The translations under genes were made by a program, and so were the position numbers. A stretch of 64,000 nucleotides of DNA from an uncultured Planctomycetia bacterium (GTDB lineage Bacteria; Planctomycetota; Phycisphaerae; Phycisphaerales; SM1A02), in the NCBI GenBank assembly GCA_937871505.1, contig CALMPF010000026.1:62001-126000 (forward strand), read 5' to 3'. The notes under the pieces were generated by a model that was not told where the DNA came from, ran no database searches, and saw only the letters and a program-made list of their open reading frames with translations. Of the stretch, positions 58,557-64,000 are shown in pieces (position 1 is the stretch's first letter; each line of letters starts with the position of its first letter).

Positions 58557-59885
58557 GTGATCGCGGTGGTCACCTGCCCCTCCTGCTGGCACCGGTTCGA
58601 TCCCGGCGCTGCCTGCTTCATCGCCGAGCATGCGGCGCTGATCGGCGATCCGGTTCTCGGGCCGGACGAGTCGCTTCGATTTCACCCGACGCGCCTTGAC
58701 GGGCTCGGCCGCGCCCTCGATCCCGAGGGCGCTCTCTGTTCGCGCGTCGCGTGTCCGCGCTGTCACCTCGAACTGCCTCACGCGGCGCTCGAGCTGCGAA
58801 CGCTGATGGTCTCCGCCATCGGCGCTCCGGCGTCGGGGAAGTCTCACCTGCTGGCGGCGGCGACGTGGAGACTTCGTCGCCTCGCGGCCGCGGGCGGGCC
58901 GGAGTTCGAGGATGCCGACCCGACCCTCAACGCGACGCTGCACGCGCAGGAATCGGCGCTCTTCCTCCCGTGCGCCGCGGCGCGCGACGGCTTCGCGATT
59001 CCGGTGCTGCCGAAGACGGAGACCGGGGGCTCGCGCCTCTACCGCGAGGTGCTCGTGCAGGGACAGGTCGAGTCGCTGCCGGTGCCGCTGCTCTTCGTCG
59101 TCGGGGCCGGCCGCGAGCGGCGCCTCCTCGTGCTCCAGGACAACGCCGGAGAGCACTTCCTGCCCGGGCGCGATCGAGCGGCCCGCGATGCGACGGGACA
59201 TCTCGGTCGCGGCGACGCGATCCTTGTGGTCCTCGACCCCCTCCAGGACCACCGCTTCCGGCGCGCCGCAGGGGTTGGTGACGGAGCCGCCGGAATCCGC
59301 ATCGCCGAGCGTCAGGAGCTGGTCGTCACCGAGGCCGCAGGGCGCATCCGCAGGCTGAGCGGGATCGAGTCCGGAACGCGGATTGCGCGTCCGGTCGTGG
59401 TGGCGCTGACCAAGGCCGATCTCTGGCAGCACCTGCTCCCCGATGTCGACCTCGCGTCTCCTCCGCTTCGGTCGCTTCGACGGGAGACCGCGGCGGTGGC
59501 GGCGGCCTCGCTCTCGCGCGTCGCCGGCGGCGACGCGGAGCGCGACGGGGAGGCCGATGCCGCGCTCTCGCGCGAGGCCGGCGGCGCGGAGACCAGGCGA
59601 GAGCCCCTCGGGCTCGACGCGGTGCGGCTGAGGCAGGCCGATGAACGCTGCTCGGCGCTGCTCGCGGCGCACTCGCCCGAGATCGCCGCCGCCCTCAACG
59701 CAGCGTTCGAGCATCCTCGCCTGGTGCCGGTCAGCGCCCTCGGCCGCTCGCCGATCTGGATCGAGGGCGAGCGCGGCGCGTCGCTCGGAGTTCCCGCGAA
59801 GGAGATCCAGCCGCGCTGGGCGGAAGTGCCCCTGCTCATGCTTCTGGCATGCGCCGAGCGGTCGTCCCAGGAGCGCGGGGCATGA
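58557..59885 (+). CDS. Zinc-ribbon GTPase (DO-GTPase2-like), head of an operon
   Basis: A 442-residue P-loop protein. The N-terminus has a zinc ribbon, with CPSCWHRF at residues about 5-12 and a second pair in CSRVACPRCH (about 62-71). GTPase motifs follow in order: G1 GAPASGKSHLL (about 90-100), G3 LVLQDNAGEHF (Asp near 194) and G4 ALTKADLW (about 282-289). It thus belongs to the TRAFAC-like GTPases that I believe are filed as DO-GTPase2 (double-GTPase type 2), linked to NTP-dependent conflict systems. There is no membrane segment. The start is GTG 58557, with GTG 58566 as an alternative. The stop overlaps the GAP1-like gene (ATGA), so the three proteins of this operon are co-translated. Confidence 0.8.
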   Translation: MIAVVTCPSCWHRFDPGAACFIAEHAALIGDPVLGPDESLRFHPTRLDGLGRALDPEGALCSRVACPRCHLELPHAALELRTLMVSAIGAPASGKSHLLAAATWRLRRLAAAGGPEFEDADPTLNATLHAQESALFLPCAAARDGFAIPVLPKTETGGSRLYREVLVQGQVESLPVPLLFVVGAGRERRLLVLQDNAGEHFLPGRDRAARDATGHLGRGDAILVVLDPLQDHRFRRAAGVGDGAAGIRIAERQELVVTEAAGRIRRLSGIESGTRIARPVVVALTKADLWQHLLPDVDLASPPLRSLRRETAAVAAASLSRVAGGDAERDGEADAALSREAGGAETRREPLGLDAVRLRQADERCSALLAAHSPEIAAALNAAFEHPRLVPVSALGRSPIWIEGERGASLGVPAKEIQPRWAEVPLLMLLACAERSSQERGA

Positions 59886-61051
59886 CCTGGGAGCTCATCC
59901 ACACCTCGGCCCCGCGGGGGCTGCACTCCGCCCATGGAGGCTTCGTCACCGTCGCCGAGACCGCCGGCCTGCCGCGGGCGCTGCGCGAGGTGCTCGAATC
60001 GCTCTCGGCGTTCGATCTCACGCCGAACGCCGAGGCGCGGCAGGGCGGCCGCGGCGCTCTGCACGGGCACTCGATCGTCCACCTCGCGGGTCGGGCCTAC
60101 AGCGTGCTCAGCCGCATCGTCCCCTGCGGGTCGGATCACACCGGCCGGCCCAACCGTCTGGCGCACCACGTCGTGCTCGGCGCCGACGAACGGCCAGCGG
60201 CCGGGCCGGCTGCGGCGCTGGCGGACTTTCCTGCCTTCCTCGATCGCTGGGATGGCCCCCCCGAGGAGCGGCCGTTCGGTCCGATCGTCGCGGCCCGCCC
60301 GCGCGTGCCGGCGCCGTGCGCGACGTGGGAGCGCCTCGTCGGCGACGCCGGCTGGGCGGGCGAGCTCCTGCGGGCGGCGTTCGAGGCGGCGCGAGCGACC
60401 GTCGCGGTCGTCCTGCCGCGCGGGTTCGACACGCCTGCGCTGGCCGACGAGATGGTCGCGCTGGTGCCCGCGGCGCGGCGCTGGGAGCTGACCTTCTGCG
60501 ATCGCGACGGCCGGGCGCGCCCTGATGTCGAGAGCCGGCTCCGCCTCGTCGACGTCGGGGCGATCGATCTCGGCGAGCTGCGCCGCCGACCCGGCACGCT
60601 GATCATCGAAGTCGCCGGGAGCGCCCCGGACTCGGCGTTCTCCCGCGCGGCGCGCGAGGGCGCCTCGATCGAAGCGGCGCTCGACGAGAGCGCGCGCATG
60701 CCGGGGGAGCCTGTCGAGCCGCTGCCTGCGAGCGCTCCCGCGCGGAGCGATCGCGCAGCGGCCGCCCGCGAGCGCATCCTGGTGCCCGCGAGGAGTCCGG
60801 CGCCTGCGCCGCCCGCGGCGACCGCGGAGCGGCGCGTCGCGCCCGCAGCGCCGTCGGCGTCCGCGTCGGCGCCCCATCGGCGGCGCGCCTACTCCGCGCG
60901 CTGGGTCATCGGGGCCGCCGCGGTTGCCGTCGCTGCGCTGCTCGCGGCGATCGTCGCGACTGCGACGCCGGTGATCCGCGATGCGTTCCGGCCCGAGCGC
61001 GTTGCGCTCGATCCGTCCGAGTCGCTCGATCCGGGAGCGCAGGCGCGATGA
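59882..61051 (+). CDS. GAP1-like protein (GTPase-associated) with C-terminal membrane anchor
   Basis: A 389-residue protein. The N-terminal about 130 residues look like the GTPase-associated protein 1 N-terminal domain (type 2): MTWELIHTSAPRGLHSA, GFVTVAETAGLPRAL, RIVPCGSDHTGRPNRLAHH. The middle part (about 140-260) fits the following GAP1 region. From about 265 on there is a low-complexity linker rich in Ala, Pro and Arg, and a single membrane helix near the end (about 341-365, VIGAAAVAVAALLAAIV). This anchoring is not expected from the known family as I recall it. It is coupled by ATGA overlaps to the GTPase gene before it and the giant coiled-coil gene after it. Confidence 0.72.
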   Translation: MTWELIHTSAPRGLHSAHGGFVTVAETAGLPRALREVLESLSAFDLTPNAEARQGGRGALHGHSIVHLAGRAYSVLSRIVPCGSDHTGRPNRLAHHVVLGADERPAAGPAAALADFPAFLDRWDGPPEERPFGPIVAARPRVPAPCATWERLVGDAGWAGELLRAAFEAARATVAVVLPRGFDTPALADEMVALVPAARRWELTFCDRDGRARPDVESRLRLVDVGAIDLGELRRRPGTLIIEVAGSAPDSAFSRAAREGASIEAALDESARMPGEPVEPLPASAPARSDRAAAARERILVPARSPAPAPPAATAERRVAPAAPSASASAPHRRRAYSARWVIGAAAVAVAALLAAIVATATPVIRDAFRPERVALDPSESLDPGAQAR

Positions 61052-64000
61052 CCTTCGTCGACTGTCAGGCGGCGGCGCGGAACGTCCGCAGCATCCTCTC
61101 GCGCGGATCTGCGGAGCGCGGCGAGATCCTCCCGGCGCTCCAGCGCTGGAACGAAGCCGTCGCCTCCGTCGCTGAGCGCCTGGCGCGCTGCCGCCCCTGG
61201 CTCGATCGCGGGCTGGTCGCGGAGGCCGTCGGGTTCGCCGAGGACTCGCGGCTCCTTCATGACGTCGCGGAGCTCTCCCTCGGCGAGGATGCGCCGCGCT
61301 GGGCGGCGCTCTGCGAGCGCGCCGGAGGCGGTCCGCCCGCGCGGCTCGACGGCGCCGATCTCGACGCGATCGAGCGCTCCGTCGCGGGATTCTCCAGGAT
61401 CCGCCCCAAGCTGGAGGCGTGGCGGCGGGCCTGCCTCGCGCGGCGGGGCATCTTCGAGAGGCTCGAGGCGCTGCGCGCCGTGCGCCGCGCCGACGCGAGG
61501 AATCCCGCGCTCGGCGCGATGCTGAGGGAGCTTGAGACCGAGGCGCTGCGCCGCGCCCCGGAGATCCTCGAAGAGGCCGAGTCGCTCGGCGACATCGAGA
61601 CGCTCGCCTCGGCGCGGCGGCAGTTCCGCGAAGGTCGCTGGACGCGGGCGATCCCGGAAGCGATCGCCGGAGCCGCGAGCGCCGCCTACGAGCGCACGGT
61701 GCGGGCGGCCTCGGCGGCGGAGCTGGACGACCTCGAGCAGCGAATCCACGCGGCCGCCGGGTCGATGGACGAGGCGGCGCTGACGTCGCTCCGCGGCGAG
61801 TGGGAGGCGGCCCTGCGGCGCATGGAGATCGGCGAGGATCCCGAACTCGATCGTCGCGTGCACGAGAGCTTCGCCTGGCTCGACGCCCGCGCCGCGCAGC
61901 GAGCCGAGGCGGAAGCCTTCGCCGAGGCGTGCGATCGGCTCGAGCGGGTGCTCGACGAGGATCGGCCCGTCGCCGAGATCGAGCGCGCCTACGCGGCGTC
62001 GACGCGCTTCGATCGGCCGCTCGCGCAGGCCGTCGAGCATCGCGTCGCCGCGCGCTTCGCCGCCGAGCGCGACTCCCGGCGGCGCCGTGCGCGCCTCGTC
62101 AGCACGATCGTCGTGGCGGCGGCGATCGTCGCTGCGGCCACCGGGCTCTACGCGCTCTCGAAGGGCATCGAGCGCCGCCGCCTCGACGGGCTGGCTGAGC
62201 GGCTCGAGAGCCTCCTCGCGAACGGTCAGGTCCCCGAGGCCCGATCGCTGGTCGGGCAGCTTCCCCCGGGGCGCAACGCGCGGCTGATCTCGGCCGTCGC
62301 CCGCACCGAGACGGAGGGAGCGCGGTGGGATGCGCAGCGCGACGACGTCGGCGCGCGGCTGCGCGAGGCCGCGGCGATCCTCGACCGGCCGGAAGTGATG
62401 ATCGACGAGCGGGCGATGGTCGCGGCCCGCGGCGCCCTCGATGGCGCTGCTCCCGCGGCGGCGTCCGTCGAGGAGCGGAGCGAGCTCGCCCGCCTCGAGG
62501 CGATTCACCAGGAGCTCTCGGCGCGGCGGGTGGAGGCGCGGCGCACCGCGGCGCGCGAGGCGTGGAGCGCGCTGCGCGCCGAGCTCGCCGCGCGCGTCCC
62601 TCCCAGCCGCTGGAGCAACGCGGAACGCACCTCGGTGCGGCGCTGGGACGAGCACCGCGGCGAGACGGCGCGCCTGCGCGGCCAGCTTGCAGCGCTGGCC
62701 ATCGAGGCGGGGCCGGCGGAGGCGGCCGAGATCGGCGTCGAGCTGCGGCGGATCGACGGCGAGCTCGCGTCCATCGACGCCAGGACCGCGGCGATGCACC
62801 GCGCCCGCGACCTGCTCGACTTCCTCGACGACCCGCCCCCGGACGAGGATGCCTACGCGGCGCGGATTCTCGAGGACCTCGCCGCCGTCGGGGAGGTCCT
62901 CGCCGAGATCGGACGCCTCTCCGCGATCGAGCGCGTGGCGGACGCCGCCCGTTCAGGCCGGGCCGTGCGCCACTGGCGCGAGGTGGTCCGCCCGCGCGAG
63001 CTGCGAACTCGAGCCCTCGAATCGGGATCGCAGGGGCCGTGGCGGCCGCCGACGCGCATCGCGGCGCTCGAGCTCGCCGCGGTGCTCGCGCTGCACGAGC
63101 AGACGCACCCCGACTCGCCCTATCAGCGCCCTGCGGCGACCATGCGCGGATTTCTCGAGCATCACGCGGGCGACGGCTCCGCGACGCGCGGCGATGCGCT
63201 CGTCGAGGCCATCCGCGCGCTGGGATTCGAGGACCTGCATCGGACGCCGCTGAAGGGAGGCGGGGCGATCTACGTCCGTCCCGGCGCCGGGCCGTTCGAC
63301 AAGGCGCTCTCCACAAAGTCAGATCTTCGACGACCGGCGGGCCAGCTCTCGCCGCGCGGCGATCCGGGTCTTGTTCCCGCGGGCCCGTCGGTGCCGGTGC
63401 TCGCTTCGGTCGCGCTCGCCGACGGGCTGCCCGCGCTCTTCGGGCGCAGCGGCATCGAGCTCATGGAGGCCTTCCTCGGCCTCGTCGAGTCGGTCGAGCG
63501 GGCGGCGCCTGAGGATCCGCTGCTCGCGACCGACCTTCTCGCCCAGCTCTGGCAGGCGTGGCGCGACGTGGCGGCGACCGCCGCGGATCCCCTGCTCGCC
63601 GCGATGGAACCGTGGCTGCGCACCCTTCAGGGACGCTGGCGCGAAGCGCTCATCTTCGATTGGGCAGGCAGGTCCAACGACCTCCGCAGCGGTCCCGCCG
63701 CGGCCGCTCGGAGCGCAGCCGAGTCGGCGCTGGCGGGCCTTCCGGCGCCGCAGCCGAGACGCGCCGCCCTCGGACGCTGGTGGGCGGGACTGATGGACGA
63801 TCTCGCGGCGTGCTCGCCGGCGGGCGCCCTTCTCTTCGCGGACGCCGACGGCATCCGCCGGACCCCGGAGTTCTCCGGCGCCGGCGAAGGGTTCATCATC
63901 GTTCCCCGACCCGGCGAACGCGGGCGGTTCATGTTCGCGCCGGTCCGGATCGTCGACGGCGAGGGGTTGGTCGAGGCTGGTGCGGCGCCGCCCGAGGCCA
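61048..64000 (+). CDS. Giant coiled-coil membrane protein, partial (runs off the window)
   Basis: The reading frame is open from ATG 61048 to the last base (984 codons visible, no stop). The first about 340 residues are Arg/Glu/Ala-rich helices of coiled-coil type. A single membrane helix at about 350-371 (LVSTIVVAAAIVAAATGLYAL) divides the protein. Beyond it, another long helical region (about 375-670) is followed by a more ordered part (about 680-984, with AALELAAVLALHEQTHPDSPY, VPVLASVALADGLPALF and RWREALIFDWAGRSND). I do not recognise the family. The start overlaps the GAP1-like stop (ATGA). Gene-like codon use throughout supports it as real. Confidence 0.75.
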   Translation, partial: MTFVDCQAAARNVRSILSRGSAERGEILPALQRWNEAVASVAERLARCRPWLDRGLVAEAVGFAEDSRLLHDVAELSLGEDAPRWAALCERAGGGPPARLDGADLDAIERSVAGFSRIRPKLEAWRRACLARRGIFERLEALRAVRRADARNPALGAMLRELETEALRRAPEILEEAESLGDIETLASARRQFREGRWTRAIPEAIAGAASAAYERTVRAASAAELDDLEQRIHAAAGSMDEAALTSLRGEWEAALRRMEIGEDPELDRRVHESFAWLDARAAQRAEAEAFAEACDRLERVLDEDRPVAEIERAYAASTRFDRPLAQAVEHRVAARFAAERDSRRRRARLVSTIVVAAAIVAAATGLYALSKGIERRRLDGLAERLESLLANGQVPEARSLVGQLPPGRNARLISAVARTETEGARWDAQRDDVGARLREAAAILDRPEVMIDERAMVAARGALDGAAPAAASVEERSELARLEAIHQELSARRVEARRTAAREAWSALRAELAARVPPSRWSNAERTSVRRWDEHRGETARLRGQLAALAIEAGPAEAAEIGVELRRIDGELASIDARTAAMHRARDLLDFLDDPPPDEDAYAARILEDLAAVGEVLAEIGRLSAIERVADAARSGRAVRHWREVVRPRELRTRALESGSQGPWRPPTRIAALELAAVLALHEQTHPDSPYQRPAATMRGFLEHHAGDGSATRGDALVEAIRALGFEDLHRTPLKGGGAIYVRPGAGPFDKALSTKSDLRRPAGQLSPRGDPGLVPAGPSVPVLASVALADGLPALFGRSGIELMEAFLGLVESVERAAPEDPLLATDLLAQLWQAWRDVAATAADPLLAAMEPWLRTLQGRWREALIFDWAGRSNDLRSGPAAAARSAAESALAGLPAPQPRRAALGRWWAGLMDDLAACSPAGALLFADADGIRRTPEFSGAGEGFIIVPRPGERGRFMFAPVRIVDGEGLVEAGAAPPEA

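Follow-up and report, generated by a model that had tools for sequence, protein, structure and literature searches.

The window (the whole stretch of 64,000 nucleotides that was analysed, bases 62001-126000 of 326,771 on contig C26 of the source genome) ends inside a six-gene operon that, in our reading, encodes one GTP-switched, ion-driven and envelope-spanning machine, analogous to the MglA-AglRQS system of Myxococcus. The probability of this reading is put at roughly 0.6. ORF and Pfam reading placed six genes on one strand, coding in this order for a GTPase, a GAP1 protein, a long protein termed gene 3, a MotA/TolQ/ExbB-like protein and its two single-TM partners B1 and B2. The reading draws on what was observed in the window and its relatives: the order and the domains of the genes, the residues that are invariant in the motor proteins, the matching histories of the six proteins and the losses of modules. 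From there we infer a scheme that covers complex formation and stoichiometry, ion flow, GTP control and its direction, docking and force transmission. The MotA/TolQ-like protein would form an ion-driven inner-membrane motor together with B1 and B2, which probably sit as a heterodimer within a pentamer formed by the MotA-like subunit. Ions passing via the invariant Asp residues would set the periplasmic domains of the B proteins in motion. The GTPase and GAP1 would act as a membrane-tethered cytosolic switch, and gene 3 would cross the membrane, with a cytoplasmic helical half that docks the switch and a long periplasmic half that works with the motor. The GTP state would then decide whether or where the motor engages.

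The original prediction was a three-gene operon reaching the window end. The three genes are real and are joined by two ATGA overlaps (gene 1/gene 2 and gene 2/gene 3; a further one joins genes 5 and 6), but gene 3 ends 29 bases further on. Reading beyond base 64000 for coupled genes, as had been advised, revealed at least three more co-directional genes 3' of gene 3 (locus L005); genes 4-6 are the missing output module. The operon is flanked by unrelated genes of the opposite strand, with DUF1501 and a large Planctomycete gene on the downstream side. The divergent upstream neighbour is a KefA/MscS-like mechanosensitive channel with porin-like and MscS_TM domains. The coordinates are collected in Table 1.

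Table 1. Positions of the operon genes and of other features mentioned in the text. Window positions are given unless a locus or contig is named; L005 coordinate + 55999 = window coordinate.
Feature	Position	Strand	Basis or remarks
KefA/MscS-like channel, 1361 aa	54460-58545	-	
Gene 1, zinc-ribbon DO-GTPase2, 442 aa	58557-59885	+	PF19993; G1/G3/G4 motifs; two CxxC pairs
Gene 2, GAP1-N2 + GAP1-M-like, C-terminal TM helix, 389 aa	59882-61051	+	PF20013; PF20014 below cut-off
Gene 3 (CC), 993 aa, putative coupler	61048-64029 (29 bases beyond window)	+	AlphaFold2 model; conservation
Gene 4, MotA/TolQ/ExbB-like	64165 (or 64204)-65139, extrapolated; L005 8166-9140	+	PF01618; TM3/TM4 motifs
B1 (gene 5), single-TM	65143-66126, extrapolated; L005 9144-10127	+	Invariant TM residues
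B2 (gene 6), single-TM	66123-67085, extrapolated; L005 10124-11086	+	Invariant TM residues; model fold ranking
Ordinary ExbD loci, source genome	G000:C26:276769-277892, C72:41594-41956, C20:51360-52189, C66:26835-27209		PF02472
Ser/Thr kinase-FGE-sulfatase gene, directly upstream of second-family motor	L073:6968-9154	+	
Ser/Thr kinase-FGE-sulfatase gene, directly upstream of second-family motor	L077:4606-6624	-	

Gene 1 was found above the Pfam cut-off for DO-GTPase2 (PF19993; 2.5e-9, 37.6 bits, cut-off 27). Its translation contains G1 (GAPASGKS), G3 (LQDNAGE) and G4 (TKAD), all of them after a CPxC...CPxC zinc module. Gene 2 likewise exceeded the cut-off for GAP1-N2 (PF20013; 6.6e-22, 78.5 bits, cut-off 24). 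Its match to GAP1-M (PF20014) was weak and below cut-off (0.0018, 18.9 bits, cut-off 24), and this domain stood clearly above cut-off in the gene 2 homologues of loci L128 and L138. A single hydrophobic helix lies near residue 342 of gene 2. The GAP1-N2 gene is directly downstream of the DO-GTPase gene, which is the GAP1-N2-type arrangement (Kaur et al. 2020). No Ras/MglA family match was found for gene 1 in Pfam, and profile searches of genes 1-3 against NCBIfam and PADLOC gave no match. In the Pfam scan of the operon, genes 1-6 yielded no effector, be it a nuclease, a helicase or one of another kind, and none of the SLATT, FGS, tubulin, HSP70 and kinase effectors was among the six proteins. 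FN3 had zero Pfam matches in these proteins, FNIII repeats being fast-evolving. Several features that had been read from the letters alone are thus borne out: the complete GTPase motifs after a zinc ribbon, the GAP1 family of the second gene, the lack of a recognisable family for the third (no accepted Pfam match), membrane helices in the partner proteins (in gene 3 near residue 350) and the lack of a toxin-like effector. The assignment of the first two proteins to GTPase/GAP1 families withstood the profile searches proposed as a check.

The G1/G3/G4 motifs are retained in most gene 1 homologues. In five loci (L079, L083, L084, L090 and L086) the P-loop is missing and the zinc module is kept. 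Since L086 stands apart from the other four in the MotA tree, the loss of the P-loop was counted as at least two events. Gene 1 would then have given up GTP binding on two or more occasions, with the motor retained each time.

Gene 4 matched MotA_ExbB (PF01618) above the Pfam cut-off (4.1e-10, 39.9 bits, cut-off 22.9). The TM3 motif PVLGFIGT was present in 80/88 MotA-like proteins and the TM4 motif AFxTT in 88/88, counts to be read with scan patterns that favour both motifs. In ExbB, Thr148 and Thr181 are essential (PMC12905483); according to our own sequence mapping, the GT of TM3 and the TT of TM4 correspond to these positions. When the MotA profile was run against the PDB, TolQ was matched at 0.045. 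B1 and B2 each have a single TM helix with an invariant Asp at its start. Invariant residues were F17, F19, Q20 and D21 in all 67 B1 sequences (motif FxFQD) and D23, N27, F29 and G30 in all 64 B2 sequences (motif LLLDxxxNxFG). The two proteins are homologous (hhalign E 7e-22), with their TM Asp residues aligned. The essential Asp of known B subunits sits at the same place, as seen for Asp25 of ExbD (PMC12905483) and D24/D21 of ZorB (PMC11890865). With this MotA/TolQ/ExbB-type subunit and two MotB/ExbD-like partners beyond the window, and with the family calls for genes 1 and 2, the original suggestion that GTP controls a complex at the inner membrane holds up.

The relation of B1 and B2 to ExbD and TolR is less direct. 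Neither protein has a Pfam match, ExbD/TolR (PF02472) included, so they are not filed as PF02472 members. Comparison with the ExbD profile was weak (hhalign E 0.02 for B2 and 0.11 for B1), a level at which sequence homology is not established. Sequence searches of the PDB with B1 and B2 returned coiled-coil look-alikes only, which were rejected. The AlphaFold2 model of B2 (pLDDT 86.8) consists of a TM helix, a long coiled coil and a periplasmic alpha/beta domain. When 998 PDB chains were re-aligned to this periplasmic domain, TolR (5by4) ranked first (Z 5.3, 86 aligned residues, 2.9 Å) and ExbD (8pek) second (Z 5.1), Z values near 5 being low; Foldseek gave E near 1 with B2. The modelled fold suggests kinship insofar as the expected family fills the top two ranks, a Z near 5 alone saying little. 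The weak profile comparison, the low Z and the missing PF02472 match of both B proteins count against the machine reading. The source genome also carries several ordinary ExbD (PF02472) loci distinct from B1/B2 (Table 1), some of them tandem pairs, and its relatives likewise hold several.

No accepted Pfam family is matched by gene 3, and a fold search returned generic helical-repeat matches only, so no family was assigned. Its AlphaFold2 model (pLDDT 87.7) is helical, with a cytoplasmic domain of ~348 residues, one TM helix and a periplasmic part of ~620 residues that terminates in a small beta domain (residues 922-990). The sequence RRRRAR lies on the cytoplasmic side of the TM segment. In two genomes (loci L066 and L067) the motor is present and GTPase and GAP1 are absent. 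A gene 3 profile built without these two sequences matched there the TM region and the last 300-410 residues only (profile positions 288-373 and 581/694-990). Both loci are nested among switch-bearing members in the MotA tree, which points to a secondary, joint loss of the switch and of the cytoplasmic half of gene 3. Since the cytoplasmic half alone went missing where GTPase and GAP1 were lost, gene 3 is probably the coupler between switch and motor. Taken together, the five loci without a P-loop and the two without the whole switch indicate that the switch is not strictly needed, which counts against the machine reading.

These losses also bear on another explanation, in which the motor performs energy transduction of the Tol/Ton type for outer-membrane upkeep or uptake, and GTPase/GAP1 only regulates its assembly. 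The TolR/ExbD-like periplasmic domain of B2 is in line with it, as are the persistence of the motor with the periplasmic half of gene 3 in the absence of a switch and the double loss of the GTP site with the motor kept. Against this, most members retain the GTPase, no TonB/TolA-like transducer, TonB-dependent receptor or Pal-like gene was found among the Pfam-scanned members, and the ordinary ExbD loci described above already exist in the source genome and its relatives. We regard this explanation as quite unlikely.

In order to evaluate the conservation of the operon independently, a MotA alignment was used as sole query against 84,980 species genomes. Confirmed relatives numbered 466, and the 80 loci retrieved came from Planctomycetota, Verrucomicrobiota, Lentisphaerota (Victivallales) and Desulfamplus. 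Upstream genes were counted where 9 kb or more of upstream DNA was available, which was the case for 37 loci. GTPase was found in 36 of them, GAP1 in 35 and gene 3 in 36, in the order seen in the window, so that the three-gene order first noted there is shared by related genomes. B1 and B2 followed the MotA-like gene in 60/62 loci. As the upstream genes were recovered with the MotA query alone, chance adjacency is ruled out. Pairwise distance matrices of the six proteins from 39 loci correlated with r = 0.85-0.98, the pattern that a single system would give and to which shared vertical descent contributes too.

A further possibility is that two independent modules merely adjoin: GTPase, GAP1 and gene 3 on the one hand and an unrelated MotA-B1-B2 motor on the other. 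Each module does occur alone. The motor lacks a switch in L066 and L067, and GTPase, GAP1 and gene 3 lack an adjoining motor in L029, L030, L035, L037 and L039, some of these contigs being short; the latter loci count against the machine reading. Gene 3 is common to both modules, as it was found with the switch alone and with the motor alone. Independence is nevertheless very improbable given an order fixed in 36/37 loci of several phyla, the correlated distances of the six proteins and the pattern of loss: where the switch is gone, exactly the cytoplasmic portion of gene 3 is gone too, which would hardly be expected of physically unconnected parts.

Most loci are metagenome-assembled; cultured members include Victivallis vadensis and Botrimarina colliarenosi. 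At low-GC loci gene calls based on GC3 were unreliable and refined coordinates were used. In Desulfamplus MAGs (L143, L144, L148 and L150) the operon occurs outside the PVC group and is nested within the PVC tree, which suggests acquisition by horizontal transfer. At L152 (10055-10894) the MotA-like gene is split across two frames and no switch genes were found upstream; this is either a decaying copy or an assembly error.

By our own count, strong MotA matches occur in 59/151 genomes of the family of the source genome and in 9/246 of a phylum sample, in which GAP1-N2 was present in 19/246 genomes. The closest MotA-like relatives (E < 1e-45) are in G181, G134, G102, G242, G024, G081, G171 and G056. 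Five of these eight have the motor a few kb downstream of GAP1-N2, G102 is split by broken contigs, and GAP1-N2 was not found in G171 and G056. In one genus the system is present in 13/14 genomes. No relative was found in 50,697 phage records, and a search of 72,556 plasmids, among which PVC plasmids are probably few, gave only two distant cyanobacterial MotA matches.

This distribution has to be weighed against a Zorya-like anti-phage role, in which GTPase/GAP1 senses infection and activates the motor; this would then depolarise the envelope, disrupt it or bring in a killing activity. Such a role is unlikely in our judgement, although it has precedents: Kaur et al. 2020 (PMC7159879) proposed in their main text that pairs of GAP1-N2 and DO-GTPase are conflict systems, and ZorAB shows that motors of the MotAB-like type can serve defence (PMC11890865). 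The family and phylum counts given above and a weak similarity to ZorA in PADLOC (0.018 at best for the window protein, 1e-4 for L031) also speak for it. On the other side, the operon is without nuclease, helicase or other effector, and its MotA-like protein is without the long cytoplasmic tail of ZorA. PADLOC matched none of genes 1-3, B1 and B2 of the window, ZorB gave no match, and the six genes share one history. Fixation in one genus, co-inheritance of the six genes and the lack of an effector favour a standing cellular function over a rapidly exchanged defence. The original prediction had placed the complex in defence or envelope stress. This is not shown. The 13/14 fixation and the outcome of the phage and plasmid searches are no less compatible with a long-term function in the envelope than with a mobile defence system.

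Zorya and the operon are alike in having a MotAB-like motor with a TM Asp that is tied to an NTP-dependent system, with conflict roles proposed or proven. Unlike Zorya, the operon has a short MotA-like subunit, two B subunits and GTPase/GAP1, and no ZorC/D/E. The nearest working analogue would be the gliding machinery of Myxococcus, with AglR (MotA-type), AglQ and AglS (TolR-type), the cytosolic Ras-like GTPase MglA and GltG, which takes up the work of the motor (PMC3169522). Both combine a single subunit of the MotA/TolQ family with two distinct TolR-like partners, and both have a small GTPase in the cytosol and a membrane-spanning protein leading from motor to envelope. They differ in that DO-GTPase2 stands here instead of MglA, no Glt proteins were recognised by Pfam and all genes are in one operon; moreover, AglQ and AglS match PF02472, whereas B1 and B2 do not. 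The likeness would be one of plan, not of family.

The GAP1-N2 systems in the main text of Kaur et al. 2020 (PMC7159879) resemble the operon in having a zinc-ribbon DO-GTPase2 followed by GAP1-N2, a C-terminal TM helix in GAP1 and, in planctomycetes, membrane proteins or trypsins that carry a GYF domain (encoded by GYF-TM and GYF-trypsin genes). In contrast, the FNIII component and the effectors named there were not recognised here; their place is taken by a helical coupler of 993 aa and a motor of three genes. The terms MotA, TolQ, ExbB, proton and stator do not occur in that main text. In PVC bacteria, loci with tolQ and a heterologous tolR pair are described with vWA transducers (PMC12204202). 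These loci and TolQR/ExbBD share with the operon the 5:2-type motor family, heterologous B pairs and an occasional nearby vWA (L128 here), but GTPase and GAP1 are not mentioned in that paper. As heterologous tolR pairs had already been noted in PVC, the pairing of B subunits is not in itself a novelty. In the open-access literature, no paper was found that joins GTPase, GYF domain and TolQ, nor anything on GAP1-N2 beyond Kaur 2020. What may be new is the operon link of DO-GTPase2/GAP1 to a MotA/TolQ-type motor, of which no description was found in that literature and the Kaur main text.

Many PVC members have genes for GYF_2-domain membrane proteins, located either within the motor or in the interval from gene 3 to it. 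Their partners vary, including trypsin-like, vWA, prenyltransferase-like toroid and DUF4190 proteins. A second planctomycete MotA-B1-B2 family (L069, L070, L071, L073, L077) carries the TM Asp in B2 only, B1 having FPFLS/FPFIS at this site, a pattern that hints at naturally heterodimeric B pairs in which just one Asp carries the ions. An iterated stop-to-stop GTPase profile drifted, flagging neighbours of other planctomycete motors as GTPases. The matches checked with Pfam (L071, L073 and L077) are Ser/Thr kinases, those of L073 and L077 being fused to an FGE-sulfatase domain (Table 1), and the flagged matches were therefore discarded. Judging from these neighbours, the second-family motor may be kinase-switched, in contrast to the GTPase-switched motor of the window operon.

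The biological role of the proposed GTP-switched machine is argued more weakly than the machine itself. By analogy with MglA-controlled AglRQS or Tol/Ton, it would tentatively be force transmission to the cell wall, the outer membrane or the surface, for which the odds fall slightly short of even. A role other than force transmission or infection-triggered defence seems rather doubtful. The chances are about even that the operon stands for a class of trans-envelope machine not described before and common across PVC bacteria, in which DO-GTPase2/GAP1 controls, via a membrane-spanning coupler of 1000 residues, the engagement of an ion-driven motor with an obligate B1/B2 heterodimer. If so, the GAP1-N2 'conflict' GTPases of Gram-negative lineages would be motor controllers.

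To our knowledge, DO-GTPase/GAP1 systems are known from comparative genomics only, with no tested output. The fixed operon with a MotA/TolQ-type motor provides the GTPase switch with a measurable output, namely ion flow, force or localisation. The natural losses, of the cytoplasmic half of the coupler together with the switch and of the P-loop on two occasions, mark functionally informative parts. If the reading is true, a motor of this type would for the second time be found under the control of a GTPase, seemingly independently of the myxobacterial MglA-AglRQS.
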